The notes under the pieces were generated by a model, which worked only from the letters and a program-made list of their open reading frames with translations, had not been told where the DNA came from and ran no database searches. 64,000 bases of DNA. Origin: an uncultured Bacteroidales bacterium (lineage in GTDB: Bacteria > Bacteroidota > Bacteroidia > Bacteroidales > Muribaculaceae). The position numbers and the translations under genes are program-made. Where the stretch lies: assembly GCA_902774055.1 (NCBI GenBank), contig CACYGX010000003.1, forward strand, positions 50,702 through 114,701, written 5' to 3'. Below are positions 7,867-59,937 of this stretch, in pieces. Numbering within the stretch: position 1 is the stretch's first letter; each line of letters opens with the position of its first letter.

Positions 7867-7981
7867 TTTGACAAAAAAAACTCCATTTACATCTTTTAAA
7901 AACAAATAGACGGTGAGAACAAGCAAAATTTCAAAAAAGTACCAACTAATAAAAGTCTGTTGTCATTTTCACAAAAAAAAC

Positions 7982-52299: not shown

Positions 52300-52557
52300 A
52301 TTGTTCTTATTGTCTTTCTTGTCGTCTAAAACAAAATGTGCGCCAGCCCCTAAAACCTAAAACCTAAAAAATATGCACCAGCCCCCTAAAACCTAAAACC
52401 TAAATGTATGCGCCAGCCCATCAGTTGAATCCGTTTAATTCGCCGACAGAAAAAAGTGTGCGGATGCCCCCTAAAGCCTAAATGTATGCGGCAGCCCACT
52501 AAAACCTAAAACCTAAAGCCTAAAGCCTAATAATAACCCTAAAGCCTAAAAGTTTGA
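52300..52557. repeat. CCTAAA(A/G) heptamer-rich intergenic block, copy 1
   Basis: A region with many CCTAAAA or CCTAAAG heptamers, alternating with variants of ATGCGCCAGCCC. It begins TTGTCTTTCTTGTCGTCTAAAA, a sequence closely repeated at about 55887 (TTGTCTTTCTTGCCATCTAAAA). It holds no gene. It lies on the opposite side of the broken LRR gene from copy 2. Confidence 0.8.
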
Positions 52558-52644: not shown

Positions 52645-55458
52645 TCAAACGCCCAGCAGCATGTCGATCAGAGCGCTGACGTCGGCGATTGTCATATAGC
52701 CATCACCATTTACATCGGCTCCAGCAGGATAGTTGCTAGTGCCATCCAGGAGGAGGTCGATGAGGGCGCTGACGTCGGCAATCGTCACTTCCTGGTCGCC
52801 GTTCACGTCACCAGGCGTGTATGCAGCGGTAATGGCGACGTTATCAACAGCGAAGTAGTCACCAGGAGGATTTACGCTACCGTCTTTCTGGTAGCTCCAG
52901 GTCAACGTGTGAGAACCAGCGGGAATGGTTGCCGTGAAGCTCTCCCAGTCGTTATCGCGAGCTCCGTAACTGAACTGTTCCGTTCCGTCAATCGAGAAAG
53001 TGCATACGTCATAAGACGTGCCCTCGCCCCATGCTTTGAAGTCAAAGGATACTATTGACTCCTCTGTCACGGTTACATTAGCCGTCATCGTTGACGAACC
53101 GCTGTCAACACCAGCACAGCCCGACTGGGCATATACGCGAGTACCGTCGCCCTTCACCGTCCAAGGATAAGTGCCCGATGAAGAAAAGTTGATGTTTCCG
53201 CCGTCAACGTTCAGCGCATACTTCAGCTCACTGACACCGTTGGGCAGAATCACGTAGAAGTTCTCCCAGTAATCAGCTGCCTTGTAGCGGTCGAGGGCAA
53301 CCATCGAGGGAACATATAGTTTAGTGTCGGTGTAATGGCTGCTCATGAACGTGTTGCTCTGGATAGTGGGTGGCGTAGCTGCTTTACTATTAATCCAGGT
53401 CAAAGCAGTGCAGCCATTGAAGGCGTTAGCATTAATGGTGCTCACATTTTGGCCCATGGTCACATATTTCAAGCCTGAACAACCACTAAAGGCGTCCTGC
53501 TCAATGGTGGAAACGCCATTAGGAATGGTTATGTTGGTTAGTGATACACATGACTTAAACGCAGATTTAGGAATCGATGGGAAGCCACCATTCGAAACGA
53601 AATTGGTTAAACTTGAACAATCCTCAAAAACATTATCACCTAATGAAGCAGGTCCTGAATAAAAATAGGCCGTGGTAAGTCCCGTACATTTCTTGAACGC
53701 ACTTTCTCCAATATATGATATCGCGTAATTACTGGTGCTAGTAAAACTTGTCAGGTTCGGACAATTATAGAAGGCTTCTACACCAATGTAAGCATTATAA
53801 GAAGCATTTATCACTACTGATGTTAGATTCGGACAATCTTTAAAGGCTCGATCTCCTATACCCATCAAAAAATACTGGATACCATTATGGACCACAAATG
53901 AAGGCAAGTTCACTGTACCACTGTAGGTACCGTAATTAGTATCCTTGTAGGTCAACTCAACGGCTAGTCCTCCTACTATGTTGTAATAAAAACCGCCTTC
54001 TTCAAAATCATAGACCCTTTCTTGGATATTATTGAAGTTGCGCCAGTAGTTTGCAGATTGATAAGCGCTCTTATAGCCACGAGCCACTTTGAGTGTCACA
54101 GTGCTGTAGTGGTTGCTCATGAAAGTGTTGCTCTGAATCGTGGGCGGCTCGCTGTAACTTGTAACAATCGCCAGCGAAGTGCAGCCGGAGAAGGCGTTGG
54201 CACCGATACTGTTCACTCCGTAGCCCCACGTCACGCTCGTCAAGCCTGCGCAGTCTTTAAAGGCATCCTGCTCGATAGTGGCCACATTGTTGCTGATGGT
54301 CACCGACGTCAGGTCTCCTTGGTTGCGCAATGAGGGTGTCTCGCCGGAACTGTTTAGCATCATGGTGGGTGTCTCACAGAAAGCACTCGCACCGATGGCG
54401 GTTACGTTATAGGTCTTGTCGGAGTAGCTGTCGTAAGCGGTCATTGGGATGGTGACATCGCCTCGATAAGAATAATCACCATAACCATACCAACTAATAC
54501 TATTGTATCCGTATTTGTTGACCACCATGGCGGTGCTGCTGCCGCTGATGTTGTAATAGATGCCGCCCGTGTAGAAGTCGTAAAGCTGTTCTGTACTAAT
54601 ACTCGTGAAGTTGCTCCATCTCAAGGCGGCAGCGTATAGGCTTTGCGAATACGGCCCGTGAACAGTAACCTTATGGCGCTTATAGGGGTTCATGAAGTTG
54701 TTGCTGCTGTCAAAGGTGCCAAAGGTGTTGCTTTCGATGTGGGGAGGGTTTAGCGCTTTGCTATATATGTCCACAGCACGGAGCGCGGGGTTGCCATACA
54801 TGGTATCTTCGCCTCTGAAATCCAAGGCATATTCCATAATTAATTCCACCGACTTGCCGATGGTGAATTATGTAATCGATGTGCATTTAACAAAGGCGTA
54901 ATTGCCAATGTATGTCACCTTATCAGGGATTACCACTTCGGTCAATGCTTCGCACCCTTGGAAAGCGTAGCTGTCGATTTCTTCCACATTGCTGCCAATG
55001 GTCAAATCGGCCAATCGGTGACAATCTCCAAATGCATTTTTACCAATGTAAATAACAGAATTAGGAATGGATACGCTGGTTAAATTGTAGTTAAAATAAA
55101 AAGCACACTCCTCTATTCTAGTTACTGTGGTTGGAATTGACAAACTTGTAATGCTATAGGTTTGGGGGTTTAAGGGGCTGCCACCTTCTGGGCGGACCCA
55201 AAAAGCAAACTCACCAATTGCTGTTACAGTATAAGTTGTTCCGTTATTGGTCACAGTGCTAGGGATAGAGATATCACCAACGTATTCAGTATGGGCATCG
55301 TCGCGATAGGTTACTTCAACGGTGTTGCTGCCCGTGATGTTGTAGTAAAATGTCTTGCCGTTGTAAACCGCTGAGAAGTCATAGGCGGTGGCGCTTAGGG
55401 CACTTGAGAGGCACGCCACTAGGGCGAGCAGTTTAAGGAAAAGTAATTGCTTTTTCAT
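52645..55458 (-). pseudogene. BspA-type leucine-rich repeat protein with dockerin, broken by an in-frame TAA
   Basis: From ATG 55458 (MKKQLLFLKLLALVACLSSA, signal peptide) the frame codes BspA LRR_5 repeats (IGNYAFVKCTSIT) until TAA at 54870-54868. The same frame continues after the stop as FTIGKSVELIMEYALDF, which fits the LRR pattern, through further repeats (SIGANAFSGCTSLAIV, IEQDAFSGCSGLKYV). After that come a carbohydrate-module-like region (SFDFKAWGEGTSYDV) and two dockerin repeats (GDVNGDQEVTIADVSALIDL, ADVNGDGYMTIADVSALIDM). The stop is TAAT, an efficient terminator, so readthrough is unlikely; TCA to TAA is one base. The intact protein would be 936 residues and surface-exposed. A GTG at 54849 could only start a signal-less fragment. 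Confidence 0.82.
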
Positions 55459-55796
55459 AATATTCAACTGGTGCCTCCTGAGTCCCCCGAATTTGGCTCT
55501 TAATAGTTGGGTAAATGAAAAGCGCAGGGACTTTGTTTGCCTGTTCACCTACTTAGAGGCATCGCCAAACGCCCTTGCACCGCGAACAGTCATCCCCACG
55601 CTTGGCCTTATGGTCAAGCCCTCTCCCATGGCTGGGGGATGGCAAACCACTCAACCAGCGACGGAGCGTTGTTGACTGCCTTTGACCTGTGCAAAATTTT
55701 GGCGAATTTTCTAAGTAAGGTCAAAAACAAAACGCTTTCGTCTTGTTTACTAATATGTCTTGCTCGGCAGCGGGACATGCCCACCACTTCACGATG
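55459..55796 (-). promoter_or_regulatory. Structured ~330-base 5' leader of the BspA-like gene
   Basis: Between the promoter at 55797-55828 and ATG 55458 lies a long untranslated stretch. On either strand CATCCCC at 55591-55597 pairs with GGGGATG at 55635-55641 and encloses GCTTGGCC-TTAT-GGTCAAGC. The arrangement is a closing 7-bp stem with an internal 8-bp hairpin (one mismatch). No known riboswitch consensus was recognised. It may be a cis-regulatory RNA or a remnant of a mobile element. Confidence 0.45.
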
Positions 55797-55879: not shown

Positions 55880-56095
55880 TGTATTCCTTGTCTTTCTTGC
55901 CATCTAAAAACAAACATGCGCCAGCCCCTAAAGCCTAAATGTATGCGCCAGCCCACCTAAAGCCTAAATGTATGCGCCAGCCCACCTAAAGCCTAAAACC
56001 TAAAACCTAAAGCCTATAGTTCGTTTAATTCGCGAAATTCGCAGTTAAAAATACTTAGCGCTTTAGCGTCTTAGCGTGATCCCCCTAAAACCTAA
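55880..56095. repeat. CCTAAA(A/G) heptamer block with 29-bp units, copy 2
   Basis: GCCTAAATGTATGCGCCAGC recurs at 55933 and 55962 and GCCTAAA again at 55991, an exact 29-base period. Heptamers CCTAAAA/CCTAAAG follow. The start TTGTCTTTCTTG(C) is shared with copy 1 at about 52310. Later CTTTAGCGTCTTAGCGTG-type sequence and TTTAATTCG occur. No gene. It is in the same orientation as copy 1. Confidence 0.85.
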
Positions 56096-56134
56096 AAATG
56101 CTTTTTGACATGGTGAAGGAGGCGGACTGGATTA

Positions 56135-56142
56135 TAATTTTG
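56135..56142 (+). promoter_or_regulatory. Candidate -7 box of the phage-like module
   Basis: TAATTTTG fits the -7 consensus 42 bases before the portal start. The only TTTG upstream is 27 bases away rather than 19-21, so the promoter is uncertain. Confidence 0.4.
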
Positions 56143-56184
56143 CAGCGTCGATAGGACACAACCATTTTTAAAACCTACAATAGC

Positions 56185-57609
56185 ATGAAAACACCAACCA
56201 CCAACGAACAGCACAAGCGCGTGCTGCATGCCGCCTACCAGGCCTGGATGAACGCCGCCGGGCTGCGGCAAGCCCGACTGAGGAACAAACGGTTCACCTA
56301 TGGCGACCAGTGGGGCGACCTGGTAAAGGATTATCAAGGCCGCGTGATGACCGAGGGCGAACACCTGGCCAGCCAGGGTTGCGAGAGGATCACCAACAAC
56401 CTGATCCGTCAACTGGTCAAGACCATCGTCGGCCGATTCCGCTGCCAGTACATCAAGCATGACGAGGATGACGCAAAATCGATGATGAACAGCGTGCGCG
56501 CTGACAATGAACTAGACGAACTCGACAGCCGTGCCCTCGAGGAGTTCCTGATCTCGGGGTGCTGCATCCAGCGCGTGGACCTCCATCACGAGCCGGGCGA
56601 GAGCGAGCGCGTGAGGGTCGATAACGTGAATGTCAACCAACTGTTTGCCGGCACGATGAATGACACCCGCGCCCTGGACTGCGAACTCATCGGGCAACTG
56701 CATGACCTGAACATCGCCCAACTGCTGCGCCGCGTTGCAGGCGGCAACCAGCGCAAGGCGGCATGGGTGCGACGGCTATACACCGACGGGGCCGAGAGCC
56801 GCATGACCGACTTCACAACCCGCCTGGGGGCCGATTCTCAGTTGGGAACGGGATTTTGGCACGCCCATGACGGCAAGTGCCGCGCCATCGAGGTGTGGAC
56901 CCTCGAGAGCCGCGAAGTCGTCGTGTGCCACAACCGCCGCGAGGGGACACTCAGCCTGGAGCCCGCCAGCCTGGCCCACCGCTTCAAGAACCGACCCGAA
57001 GTGACCACCCGCTGGGACATCGCCACCGTGTGGCACTGCCGCTGGTTCAGCCCGATGGGCGACCTGCTGTGCGAGTATGACTCACCATGGCCTCACGGCA
57101 GCCACCCGTTTGTCATCAAACTCTATCCGCTCACCGATGGCGAGGTACATGCCGTCGTCGAAGACATCATCGACACGCAGAAGCACGTCAACCGCATGAT
57201 TTCGCTGCTCGACCAGGTGATGCGCTCCAGTGCCAAGGGGGTGCTGCTATTTCCCGAAACCGCCCTGCCCGACGGCTGGACGTGGGAGGACGCACGACGC
57301 TGCTGGTCTAGCGCCAACGGCCTGCTGCCCTACAATCCGCGCTACAGCGAAGCCAAACCCGAGCAGGTGAGCGCCAATGGCACGAACATCGGTGCCTACC
57401 AGATGATTGAGTTGCAGATGAAGCTATTCGAGGAAATCAGCGGCGTGAGCGGTGCCCTGCAGGGTAAGGATCCTACGTTCAAGAGCGCCAACGTCTATCA
57501 ACTGCAAAGCGAGAACGCCAACATCGCCTTGAGCGACGTGTATGACACGTTCGAGGCCTTCAGGCGGCAACGGGACCGCAAAATCCAAGCATTAGTTTCT
57601 ATTTCCTAG
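56185..57609 (+). CDS. Phage portal protein (P22-like)
   Basis: This 474-residue protein has the layout of portal proteins. An N-terminal helical wing includes RFTYGDQWGDLVKDYQGRVM (GDQW motif) and ERITNNLIRQLVKTIVGRFR. Then come mixed beta segments (VRVDNVNVNQLFAGTMND) and the long stem helix VVEDIIDTQKHVNRMISLLD with MRSSAKGVLLFPE. The C-terminal part, ISGVSGALQGKDPTFKSANV, has the SGVSGALQG turn seen in Bacteroidetes phage portals. In a phage the dodecamer forms the DNA entry ring of the head. Here it stands first in a four-gene set, with no terminase gene next to it. It is 34 bases from the next gene. Confidence 0.75.
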   Translation: MKTPTTNEQHKRVLHAAYQAWMNAAGLRQARLRNKRFTYGDQWGDLVKDYQGRVMTEGEHLASQGCERITNNLIRQLVKTIVGRFRCQYIKHDEDDAKSMMNSVRADNELDELDSRALEEFLISGCCIQRVDLHHEPGESERVRVDNVNVNQLFAGTMNDTRALDCELIGQLHDLNIAQLLRRVAGGNQRKAAWVRRLYTDGAESRMTDFTTRLGADSQLGTGFWHAHDGKCRAIEVWTLESREVVVCHNRREGTLSLEPASLAHRFKNRPEVTTRWDIATVWHCRWFSPMGDLLCEYDSPWPHGSHPFVIKLYPLTDGEVHAVVEDIIDTQKHVNRMISLLDQVMRSSAKGVLLFPETALPDGWTWEDARRCWSSANGLLPYNPRYSEAKPEQVSANGTNIGAYQMIELQMKLFEEISGVSGALQGKDPTFKSANVYQLQSENANIALSDVYDTFEAFRRQRDRKIQALVSIS

Positions 57610-57643
57610 CCATTTATCAATATCTTTTAATCTACTTTTTATC

Positions 57644-58048
57644 ATGAAAAACGAAGAAGAAAACCATGAACTGCAAGAGGCGACACCCGTGGTCACGCCA
57701 CCGCCTTTTCGCCCGAGTGAAGAAAGTGAAAATGCCCAGGAGCCGACCGCCTCCCCCACCCTTGCCGAGAAAATTGCGGCAATAGGGCTCGACGAGGAGA
57801 CTGCCGAGCGCATCAGGCAACTCACGCTAGAGCTCGACGCCCAGAGCGTCACTACCGACCTGCTCGCCACGCTCGCCCGTGGCATCACCCACGACGCCGA
57901 CGTGCAAAATGCCGACGCAGCGGGCTTCCTGCGGGGCCGCAACGAGAAAATCGAGACCGTGCTGCATCAATGTCCCGACAACGGCGACGAGTCGGTATCC
58001 ACACCCGTTTTTCCCCGCTACTGCCGCCGCAGCATTTGGGATGATTAA
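57644..58048 (+). CDS. Small acidic phage-like protein (scaffold candidate)
   Basis: This 134-residue protein has an acidic and disordered N-terminus (MKNEEENHELQEATPVVTPP, FRPSEESENAQEPTASPT), then helices (LAEKIAAIGLDEETAERIRQ, TLELDAQSVTTDLLATLARG) and a Cys-containing tail. No motif identifies it. The position between portal and capsid genes and the acid helical character suit a scaffolding or capsid-assembly protein, but that is inference. The 90 bases behind it contain five consecutive heptamers of ATTAAAC type just before the capsid gene. Confidence 0.55.
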   Translation: MKNEEENHELQEATPVVTPPPFRPSEESENAQEPTASPTLAEKIAAIGLDEETAERIRQLTLELDAQSVTTDLLATLARGITHDADVQNADAAGFLRGRNEKIETVLHQCPDNGDESVSTPVFPRYCRRSIWDD

Positions 58049-58073
58049 GAGTTAAAGCGTAAGGCGTCAGCCC

Positions 58074-58108
58074 ATTAAACATTAAACATTAAACATTATC
58101 CATTAACC
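58074..58108 (+). repeat. ATTAAAC heptamer tandem repeat before the capsid gene
   Basis: ATTAAAC occurs three times in a row (58074-58094), followed in the same seven-base phase by ATTATCC and ATTAACC. ACGGCCGCAGGCCGT then forms a small palindrome at 58109-58123. The repeat lies about 30 bases upstream of the start codon. Confidence 0.85.
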
Positions 58109-58138
58109 ACGGCCGCAGGCCGTCTAAATCTACAAACC

Positions 58139-59542
58139 ATGAACAACAGTAAGTTTTTCAAGGCGATGCGCTGGATGCGCCGCCACAAGAAGTTAATCCT
58201 CTTTGTATTCATCATGATTCTCATCGCTATCCTGGCATCGTGCATCACCGGTGGCGCACCGGGAGCGACACTGGCAGTGGGAATGATCATCACTGGCGTC
58301 GAGGAAGGCAATCACGTTGTTGACGGTCCGCTCACGACCGACCTCGCCCATGAGGGCGCTCCCGACCTGCTGCTCAACGAGATTGACCAGCAGATCGTGA
58401 AAATCCGCCCCATGTCAACGCCCATCGACCAGATTTCGCGATATGCCGGCAGCAAGCACAGCGGCAGCATGGTCGTGGATTACTACAGCGTGGACACCAA
58501 GCCCACAATGGCGCAACTCATCGAGGATATTGAGGAAACCGAGAATCCCAGCGATGAGTCGCCCATGACCGTCATCCACACCAACAACAACGACATCTTT
58601 GACCCGACCGACACCATCCTGGTGCAGAATGTTTCGGGATATGAAAGCGATGGCCAGACCGAGAGCGACCAGGACCTGATGCTCTACGTCATCGGGCGCG
58701 ACGCTAACGGTGTCACCGTCATGGCGGTCAACGGTCCCACGATCAACGGTGTCCCCAACTGCTTCCCCGAGGTAACGAGCGGCTCGACCCTGGTGCGCAT
58801 GGGACGTGCAGCCAGCGAACTCGATGTGCAGTCGCCTCAATTCGAGTCCCTTCCCAAGAAGAACCGCAACCTGTGCCAGATCTTCAAGATGCAGGTCGAG
58901 CAATCCACCCTGCAGCGCCTGGCCAACAAGGAGGTGGGCTGGACCATGAGCGACCAGGAGGAAGCCGCCGTCTATGACATGCGCATGGGTATGGAGAAAT
59001 CCTACCTCTTCGGCGTAGCACGCCAGATGTGGGATCCCATCAAGAAGGAGCACGTCTATTTCACTGGCGGCATCTGGAGCCAGGCCGGCAAGGACTTCGT
59101 GCTGGAGAAGAGTGTGGACCTCACGGTGAGCAAGATGGTGGACCTGATGCGCGAGGCCTGCACGGGCAATTCGGGCAGCAAGCGCAAAATCCTGATCGGT
59201 GGCAGCGGACTCATCAGCCGCATCAGCAAGTTGGACTACACCCGCATTATCACCGCTGGCCAGCATGTGAGTAAATGGGGCATAGATTTCACCGAGTTGC
59301 GAAGTAAATTTGGTTGCCTGTATCTGCTTCTGAGTGAGGTGTTTGACGAGGTAGGCATGGAAGACGAGGGTATCGTCATCGATCCCGAGTATATCCAGAA
59401 GTACACCCACATCCCCTTCAGCACCGAGCAACTCAACCTCAAGAAGAGCGGTGTGCGCAACGTGGACGCACTGGTGATGACCGAGGCTTCGTGTCTGGTA
59501 CTGCGCTACCCCAAGGCACACATGCGCATCACCACCGTATGA
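58139..59542 (+). CDS. Phage major capsid-like protein with an N-terminal membrane-anchor or lipoprotein-like leader
   Basis: This is a 467-residue protein. The capsid part starts around residue 60 (VVDGPLTTDLAHEGAPDLLL, then NEIDQQIVKIRPMSTPIDQI) and runs through VSGYESDG, RMGRAASELD, NRNLCQIFKMQVEQS and KRKILIGGSGLISR, to CLVLRYPKAHMRIT; this is typical of capsid proteins of Bacteroidetes phages and prophages. Unusually, residues 1-18 are basic (MNNSKFFKAMRWMRRHKK), followed by LILFVFIMILIAI and LASC, a perfect lipobox, then ITGGAPGATLAVGMIITG. A cytoplasmic capsid protein should not need that. The stop overlaps the M15 start by four bases (ATGA). Alternative starts inside the leader are possible. 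Confidence 0.72.
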   Translation: MNNSKFFKAMRWMRRHKKLILFVFIMILIAILASCITGGAPGATLAVGMIITGVEEGNHVVDGPLTTDLAHEGAPDLLLNEIDQQIVKIRPMSTPIDQISRYAGSKHSGSMVVDYYSVDTKPTMAQLIEDIEETENPSDESPMTVIHTNNNDIFDPTDTILVQNVSGYESDGQTESDQDLMLYVIGRDANGVTVMAVNGPTINGVPNCFPEVTSGSTLVRMGRAASELDVQSPQFESLPKKNRNLCQIFKMQVEQSTLQRLANKEVGWTMSDQEEAAVYDMRMGMEKSYLFGVARQMWDPIKKEHVYFTGGIWSQAGKDFVLEKSVDLTVSKMVDLMREACTGNSGSKRKILIGGSGLISRISKLDYTRIITAGQHVSKWGIDFTELRSKFGCLYLLLSEVFDEVGMEDEGIVIDPEYIQKYTHIPFSTEQLNLKKSGVRNVDALVMTEASCLVLRYPKAHMRITTV

Positions 59543-59937
59543 GGTACTTCACCATCCCGGAACTCACACGGTCGGCCACCGCGCGGCGACTGGGCATCAA
59601 CAACACGCCACCACCCAGTGCTATCGAGGCGCTCAACCGCCTCGTGGACAACGTGCTCGACCCGCTGCGCGAGGCATGGGGAGGGCCCATCAGGGTCAAT
59701 AGCGGATTTCGGTGCCCAGCGCTGAACAAGGCCGTGGGTGGCACGCCCACCAGCCAGCACCAGTATGGCGAAGCCGCCGACATCACCGTCGGCTCGCGTA
59801 GCGGTAACCGCCGCCTGCTAGCCCTCATCAAGCGATTGGACCTGCCTGTGGACCAATGCATTGACGAGAAAGGCTGCCGCTGGATCCACGTGAGCCACCG
59901 CACGGGCCGCAACCGCCGCATGTACATGAAATTCTAG
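59539..59937 (+). CDS. M15-family peptidase (phage-type endolysin)
   Basis: This 132-residue protein starts at ATG 59539 (MRYFTIPELTRSATARRLGI), overlapping the capsid stop by four bases. Motifs are IRVNSGFRCPALNKAVGGTP, SQHQYGEAADITV (His-x6-Asp of the zinc site) and WIHVSH (third zinc ligand), as in M15A D-Ala-D-Ala peptidases. There is no signal peptide. It would cleave peptidoglycan cross-links, as phage endolysins do at lysis or head assembly. Here it is translationally coupled to the capsid gene rather than to a holin. A hairpin terminator follows at 59974-60052. Confidence 0.88.
   Translation: MRYFTIPELTRSATARRLGINNTPPPSAIEALNRLVDNVLDPLREAWGGPIRVNSGFRCPALNKAVGGTPTSQHQYGEAADITVGSRSGNRRLLALIKRLDLPVDQCIDEKGCRWIHVSHRTGRNRRMYMKF

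Follow-up and report, generated by a model that had tools for sequence, protein, structure and literature searches.

The six features that define gene transfer agents (GTAs) are set out in the accessible text of Kogay et al. 2022 (PMC9662315), in which the RcGTA-like elements (Rhodogtaviriformidae) appear as caudoviricete-derived, vertically inherited and encoded at several loci. The nearest described case to the system reported here is FpGTA of the gut commensal Faecalibacterium, which, according to the available part of its report (PMC12946183), has podovirus-like parts encoded at two chromosomal loci, one of them structural plus lysis. For Bacteroidales, neither a GTA nor a domesticated capsid was found described in the titles and abstract beginnings listed by searches of an open-access library. 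Here we analysed a 64,000-nucleotide stretch of DNA (the window) from an uncultured Bacteroidales bacterium (contig CACYGX010000003.1 of assembly GCA_902774055.1), which bears a four-gene module, termed locus I, encoding a portal protein, a small acidic protein (p2), a major capsid protein and an M15 peptidase. Judged by sequence comparison, locus I is probably part of a dispersed, vertically inherited, podovirus-derived GTA or of something very close to one, and would resemble FpGTA and the RcGTA-like elements in the respects just named.

An earlier, sequence-only reading had taken locus I for an isolated phage-head module without terminase, tail or integrase. The four genes, their positions and their spacing are confirmed by open reading frames and by Pfam and PHROG matches (Table 1): 34 and 90 bases separate the portal, p2 and capsid genes, a 4-base ATGA overlap joins the capsid and M15 genes, and the open reading frame is uninterrupted in all four. 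The lack of terminase and tail genes holds for the surroundings of the module, but not for the genome. A terminase and a nozzle are encoded on the same contig (locus II) and two phage-related proteins on contig C13 (locus III), and the module is therefore not isolated.

Table 1. Positions of the set. Values without a contig prefix are positions in the window; C3 and C13 are contigs of the same genome.
Feature	Position	Strand	Evidence or remarks
Portal protein, P22/SU10 type, 474 aa	56185..57609	+	PF16510 P22_portal, E 1.7e-16; phrog_156, 1.4e-39
p2, small acidic protein, 134 aa, putative scaffolding protein	57644..58048	+	predicted isoelectric point 4.4
Major capsid protein, SU10 type, 467 aa	58139..59542	+	PF17236 SU10_MCP, 2.1e-47
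M15_3 peptidase, probable endolysin, 132 aa	59539..59937	+	PF08291, 6.5e-19; phrog_894 endolysin, 5.4e-36
Promoter-like bipartite element CTTTTTGACATGG-N21-TAATTTTGCAGCG	56101..56147	+	5' of portal, four-gene operon
Locus I	C3:106.9-110.6 kb (window 56185-59937)		portal, p2, capsid, M15
Locus II, nozzle-terminase	C3:136949-140944		~27 kb downstream of locus I, 22 kb past the window edge
Large terminase, intact	C3:137027-138814	minus	found by profile A1 (relatives and phages)
Locus III, C8 and C19, small phage-related proteins	C13:8.8-9.8 kb		adjacent genes, found by profiles of closer relatives

Comparison of gene neighbourhoods placed a large terminase family close to the capsid gene in some genomes of the same family, from which profile A1 was built. 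The terminase profile matches T4 gp17 (2.1e-15) and the genome's own copy matches phrog_2 (1.2e-18), retaining 151 of 169 invariant residues, including the KARQWGG, ESTANG and HDD stretches, to which we ascribe the functional roles of terminase motifs. The set is easily overlooked, because the Pfam model Terminase_6C has no match anywhere in this genome and the genes do not lie side by side. Adjoining the terminase, a 665-aa protein was modelled by AlphaFold2 with a mean predicted local distance difference test score (pLDDT) of 90.6. A Foldseek search of the PDB gave as its best matches the tails of SU10, Kp7, Kp9, HRP29 and T7, the top six having E values of 5e-13 to 5e-12 and a probability of 1.00, with the T7 nozzle gp12 named lower down. 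These top matches are partial, with ~7-10% sequence identity and TM-scores by query of 0.38-0.47 in the top ten. By its predicted fold, the 665-aa protein is a short-tail nozzle.

In locus I, the portal profile (A6) matches the phage portal 8jov over part of its length (9.5e-7), and the capsid profile (A7) matches the phage VP1 capsid 9in6 (2.1e-12). The M15 peptidase contains HQYGEAAD and WIHV stretches, which we take to be M15 motifs. The p2 protein itself has only a weak PHROG match (phrog_22323, 0.0061); a longer sister-family homologue of 255 aa matches this PHROG family, of unknown function, at 1.9e-34. In 16 of 20 additional loci of the family (L050-L069) and in all six sister-family loci, the capsid gene is preceded by a member of the p2 hidden Markov model family, and most members end in an RRSVWD-like basic motif. 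From its place before the capsid gene, its acidity and this C-terminal motif, p2 is probably a scaffolding protein. The capsid has an N-terminal hydrophobic segment (residues 19-34; 58193-58240), as do the capsids of Bacteroides phages; the segment is missing in three of 15 aligned capsids (L041, L053 and L062). In locus III, C8 (150 aa) has phage homologues, and C19 was not detected in the phages compared. C8 was found in all 14 genomes searched in clade A, the clade of the window's genus to which its own genome belongs (own genome included), and each of the 14 loci has a C19 match next to it. A general profile of C19 (A3) had not picked up the own copy, which was recognised beside C8 once a C8 profile of closer relatives was used.

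The set is widespread in the family of the window's genome. A capsid was detected in 270 of 297 family genomes and in 192 of the 204 of high quality, 240 of the matches being strong and 30 weak by hand count; the weak ones, many of them from a single genus, have E values of 1e-13 to 1e-20. A terminase was detected in 181 of 198 and a nozzle in 91 of 99 family genomes searched. Phage-type copies of the same families occur additionally or instead (L075-L081, G456 and G552), so that the domesticated form may be less common than the terminase counts by themselves suggest; in G456 and G552 the capsid and the terminase are each accompanied by another copy, the additional capsid being more phage-like (36-39%). 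Both searches covered 198 family genomes, of which 16 had no capsid, 17 no terminase and seven neither (hand count; hypergeometric 7e-5), a co-absence that incomplete assemblies inflate. Across the order, the capsid was detected in 18 of 247 sampled genomes; four belong to the family of the window's genome, and the other 14, from seven further families, all encode a terminase as well. In 13 of them, from six other families, the terminase lies more than 10 kb from the capsid or on another contig, and in the fourteenth (G341) it lies inside a phage-like cluster. No terminase was found in ten genomes picked from the 229 without capsid, and the resulting co-occurrence, G341 included, has a Fisher probability of 5e-7.

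In a sample of 26 genomes carrying capsid, terminase and RpoB, the RpoB tree has 13 of 23 splits in common with the capsid tree and as many with the terminase tree, compared to at most three in 1000 label shuffles. Distances correlate with those of RpoB at 0.30 for the capsid, a value reached in 5 of 2000 permutations, and at 0.55 for the terminase, reached in 0 of 2000. These trees indicate that, within the family, capsid and terminase largely followed their hosts through speciation. The ratio of nonsynonymous to synonymous substitution rates (dN/dS), proposed earlier as a check for neutral drift, is low throughout (0.02-0.33), i.e. not neutral: 0.02-0.17 for the capsid, 0.05-0.11 for the portal, 0.11-0.18 for the terminase, 0.15-0.23 for the nozzle and 0.17-0.33 for p2. 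These values, calculated by NG86 from the eight closest pairs (all six pairs for terminase and nozzle), are rough, since dS is 0.5 to 2.2 in most pairs; they indicate that the genes are under purifying selection. Moreover, the carbon content per residue, which Kogay et al. report to be lowered as a signature of alphaproteobacterial GTAs (PMC7360931, available part), is below that of the phage homologues after adjustment for GC content for the portal (-0.21), the terminase (-0.10) and the nozzle (-0.12, against five phage nozzles only).

The arrangement of the genes differs among relatives. Two family loci (L055 and L067) hold a single cluster in the order nozzle, terminase, p2, capsid, adaptor, portal, C8 and C19. 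In several other genera p2, capsid, adaptor and portal genes stand together with the nozzle-terminase pair elsewhere, and in the second clade of the window's genus p2-capsid, adaptor, C8-C19 and nozzle-terminase are all apart, except that L104 has adaptor, C8 and C19 together. Within clade A, capsid, p2 and portal occur in 15 of 15 genomes and M15 in 14, a sixteenth genome (G187) being truncated; a glycerate kinase gene lies 3' of the module in eight of the nine named loci. The p2-capsid pair adjoins a fumarate hydratase gene in five of six sister-family loci, the other four fumarate hydratases being 80-88% identical to that of L126, which accords with vertical descent.

Expression of the dispersed loci may be coordinated by a common upstream element. 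The pattern CTTTTTGN{25,29}TANNTTTGC, which describes the promoter-like element 5' of the portal gene, has a single match in the window and none in 100 shuffles, and a looser pattern with the first C dropped also matches at 7877 on the minus strand. The form CTTTTTGACATGG-N20/21-TAATTTTGC[A/G]GCG precedes the portal gene in all nine clade-A loci with a portal (the window and L031-L038), one of the nine sites reading TCATGG, and the same pattern precedes the genome's own nozzle-terminase operon (L083:10886-10928, minus). When 83 untrained operon heads were scored with a matrix built from the nine sites, 11 came out higher than every one of the 772 control upstream regions (Fisher 4e-12). These 11 heads, from several genera, comprise three of nozzle, four of adaptor and four of p2-capsid operons, and at other spacings only 0, 2, 2 and 3 heads reach that level. 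The remaining 72 heads, including all 28 that start with C8, capsid or terminase, are not above the best control, and L084 has a pattern match that is not near the set. As the element was derived from one clade, it is support and not proof. Its right half resembles what we take to be the Bacteroidales -7 box, so that an ordinary promoter accounts for some of the signal; the distinctive parts are the long spacing and the left half.

Related phages carry most of the same gene families in one place. Bacteroides phages BF1-TP2 (PQ571263), BS-TP4 (PQ571277) and BKO1-TP3 (PQ571269) have a homologous capsid of 37-39% identity; at E <= 1e-4, over 25-41 kb stretches of each record, portal, terminase and C8 were found in all three, the nozzle and the scaffold-like protein in two each and the adaptor in one. 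Their records of 64-68 kb hold the set genes together, whereas in the window's genome they are dispersed, and their portals exceed 600 aa compared to ~455-500 aa in most family loci. A protein annotated as a tail spike in each of the three records (L047:16107-18182, L048:16057-18153 and L049:7847-9961) matches the large terminase profile, of which the three are themselves members, and one of them also matches PHROG terminase models. Most of the IMG/VR phage contigs examined likewise carry the same gene families together. In a tree of 97 distinct capsids, 26 family members and IMG/VR contigs L133, L134 and L136, the only such contigs inside the family clan, all three with the same compact gene order, form a clan with a support of 0.939; six sister-family capsids form their own clan (0.643), and both lie within one clan of 36 (0.999) that also contains the IMG/VR contig L132. 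The other phage capsids, namely the 74 lower ones among the 80 retained of 126 IMG/VR matches, fall outside this clan at 34-42% identity. The contigs with the compact set, L133-L136, are possibly host chromosome filed as viral, and L136 is an inverted duplication that is likely an assembly artefact. L132 has a phage-type order of terminase, C8, p2, capsid, adaptor, fibre and a lysozyme-like gene, and its capsid is nearest to those of the sister families. The clan is thus not upheld as proof of a single capture, since L132 falls inside it. These trees and gene orders fit an ancestor that captured the set, once or twice, with dispersal afterwards.

Among the GTA features given in PMC9662315 (accessible text), derivation from caudoviricete proteins is seen here by similarity for capsid, portal and terminase and by predicted fold for the nozzle, protein similarity or images being accepted there for the caudovirion-like feature. 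Full endogenisation over several loci is seen on contigs C3 (twice) and C13, and vertical inheritance with co-diversification is seen within the family in the splits shared with RpoB. The other three features on that list, to be read from particles, are encapsidation of mostly random host DNA, inability to package the whole GTA genome and delivery of DNA to other cells. The spread over two contigs makes it implausible, we infer, that one particle could contain the whole set. In such a system, the loci would be turned on together through the shared element, the capsid would assemble on the scaffold and portal, and the terminase would package host DNA, with no phage genome to replicate. The nozzle would then close the portal and make a short tail, the M15 endolysin would lyse the producing cell, and the particles would carry DNA to relatives. 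Packaging of own DNA is expected under the GTA model because the host keeps motor, head, nozzle and endolysin but no adjacent phage genome. In a more specific version, the set would be an independent ancient GTA lineage from an SU10/crAss-like podovirus, captured once or from two closely related phages, near-core in a single gut family, probably Muribaculaceae, and in six or more further families of Bacteroidales, with its genes scattered and held as a regulon by a dedicated promoter. We offer this version tentatively, the balance lying slightly against it, and the phage-type cluster of L132 inside the capsid clan lowers our confidence in it.

Several observations weigh against a GTA. The main gap in the functional reading is the adaptor, which was not found in the window's clade. 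In relatives, the adaptor model (pLDDT 87.6) best matches phiCrAss001 tail-barrel proteins, of which we take the matched chains to be ring proteins, and Pa223 and SU10 tail proteins, with modest scores (best E 3.3e-4), and the family is present in many loci of other genera and strong in 17 of 41 genomes of the window's genus. Profile searches did not find it in the own genome or in 11 clade-A relatives, the sole two hits in the clade (E 0.11 and 0.37) lying in reading frames interrupted by stops. Weak hits in G311 and G307 were rejected as adaptors, their neighbours suggesting a host gene. A tail-fibre gene was likewise not found in the family loci examined, and a fibre-domain profile matched solely its source sister-family and phage loci. 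In five sister-family loci (L125, L127, L128, L129 and L130) a protein that is probably a tail fibre, 302 to 1256 aa long, is encoded near the capsid, adjoining the adaptor gene wherever an adaptor is present. Moreover, broken copies occur: the G187 capsid lacks its N-terminus, with no portal or p2 in its 21 kb locus (L018/L039), a stop divides the terminase of G077 (L092), L057 has a split portal frame, and for G135 and G195 the capsid matches are reported to contain stops. Of the 297 family genomes, 27 have no capsid match and 30 more only a weak one, and some of the terminase matches look phage-type (L075-L081). Phage-type L132 lies inside the capsid clan, so that the set may have entered these families by more than one capture. 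The capsid lacks the lower-carbon signature (+0.03 per residue, GC-adjusted). A 301-aa tyrosine recombinase gene (L044:8432-9334; PF00589, PF02899), perhaps XerC/D-like in our view, stands immediately upstream of p2-capsid in one relative. Finally, in the accessible part of a survey of three human faecal viromes (PMC12946183), GTA-like packaging is mainly from Bacillota and Bacteroides shows lateral transduction, with no GTA seen in Bacteroidota among the three donors.

A domesticated headed particle like PBSX, which packages host DNA to kill competitors or as programmed lysis and not for delivery, would keep the same genes (capsid, portal, terminase, nozzle and endolysin), and the sister-family fibre-like proteins vary in length as receptor-binding or killing-range proteins do. 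A short-tailed nozzle does not belong to a contractile or long-tailed killing device, and the capsid and terminase are vertical and dispersed, which leaves this explanation unlikely. It would take an even less probable course of events for the host-made capsid, portal or terminase to be maintained for poisoning the assembly of related Bacteroides-type phages: such phages do occur, sharing most of these protein families and having capsids of 34-42% identity, but one or two proteins would suffice for interference and enzyme motifs would relax, whereas the terminase motifs and the assembly set are kept. In addition, none of the eight proteins matches a PADLOC model at E <= 0.01, and a known anti-phage defence system was accordingly rejected.

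That the genes are a prophage remnant in decay, or a satellite borrowing functions, finds some support in the broken copies (L018, L057 and G077), the failure to find the adaptor in the window's clade and the recombinase gene beside p2-capsid in L044. However, low dN/dS, presence in most genomes and host-congruent trees argue against it, as do the terminase and nozzle that the host itself encodes and the lack of any mobility gene among the eight neighbours scanned with Pfam, so that we regard this as very improbable. Mobility or replication genes together with structural genes, or decay, as expected of a prophage, are not what locus I shows; the claim that it has no integrase stands for the eight scanned neighbours only, as neither the whole window nor the genome was scanned for integrases. 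A satellite that borrows packaging and tail genes, one of the earlier suggestions, is contradicted by a terminase and a nozzle that belong to the host genome itself and by the lack of a mobility gene among the scanned neighbours; a young remnant is contradicted by the age and conservation of the set. Disrupted frames in relatives had been named as evidence against a maintained module: the four frames of locus I are open, and broken copies exist in G187, G077 and L057. An encapsulin-like use of the capsid, as a protein compartment or a shell for non-DNA cargo, could account for capsid, scaffold-like protein and peptidase in a local operon, but it is highly improbable, since portal, terminase and nozzle would be useless in a sealed shell and yet are co-conserved; a shell without portal and packaging motor is not what is found here. 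Among the earlier suggestions, a domesticated capsid or gene-transfer-like particle is strongly supported by family-wide presence, host-congruent trees, purifying selection and separately kept loci.

The neighbours of locus I with a family match are host genes: on the left BspA-type leucine-rich repeat (LRR)/dockerin, FMN reductase, methyltransferase and glycosyltransferase genes, and on the right glycerate kinase and TP_methylase genes; three of the neighbours scanned have no match. The host LRR gene on one side and glycerate kinase gene on the other agree with the sequence-only reading, with the addition that the LRR/dockerin gene (52645-55548, minus) carries a single in-frame stop (54868-54870), both parts being in the same frame. 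Tandem repeats lie near the module and within its intergenic parts, at 55916-55997 and 52333-52419 (a 29-base ATGCGCCAGCCC unit and a related 35-base unit) and at 58073-58106 between the p2 and capsid genes (a 7-base CATTAAA unit).

If the GTA reading is correct, a large bacterial family of animal guts carries its own DNA-packaging particle, which would help account for the high gene exchange in Bacteroidales, and an independent short-tailed GTA origin would join the few known. It would also show how far a viriform can dissolve into a host genome and still work, and the clustered, split and widely dispersed versions across many species would make GTA maintenance testable. In tail machinery, the predicted nozzle fold and adaptor-like fold are like those of SU10, T7 and phiCrAss001. 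The RcGTA-like elements differ in being tailed alphaproteobacterial particles with 49 nm tails, as described in the accessible text of PMC9662315, and are likened here by description. Compared to FpGTA as described in the available part of PMC12946183, which has a Gram-positive host, the phage ancestry here is likely another one, given the SU10-type capsid. The particles of the present system are predicted from its genes, and its set occupies three or more loci and extends over a whole family and related families.

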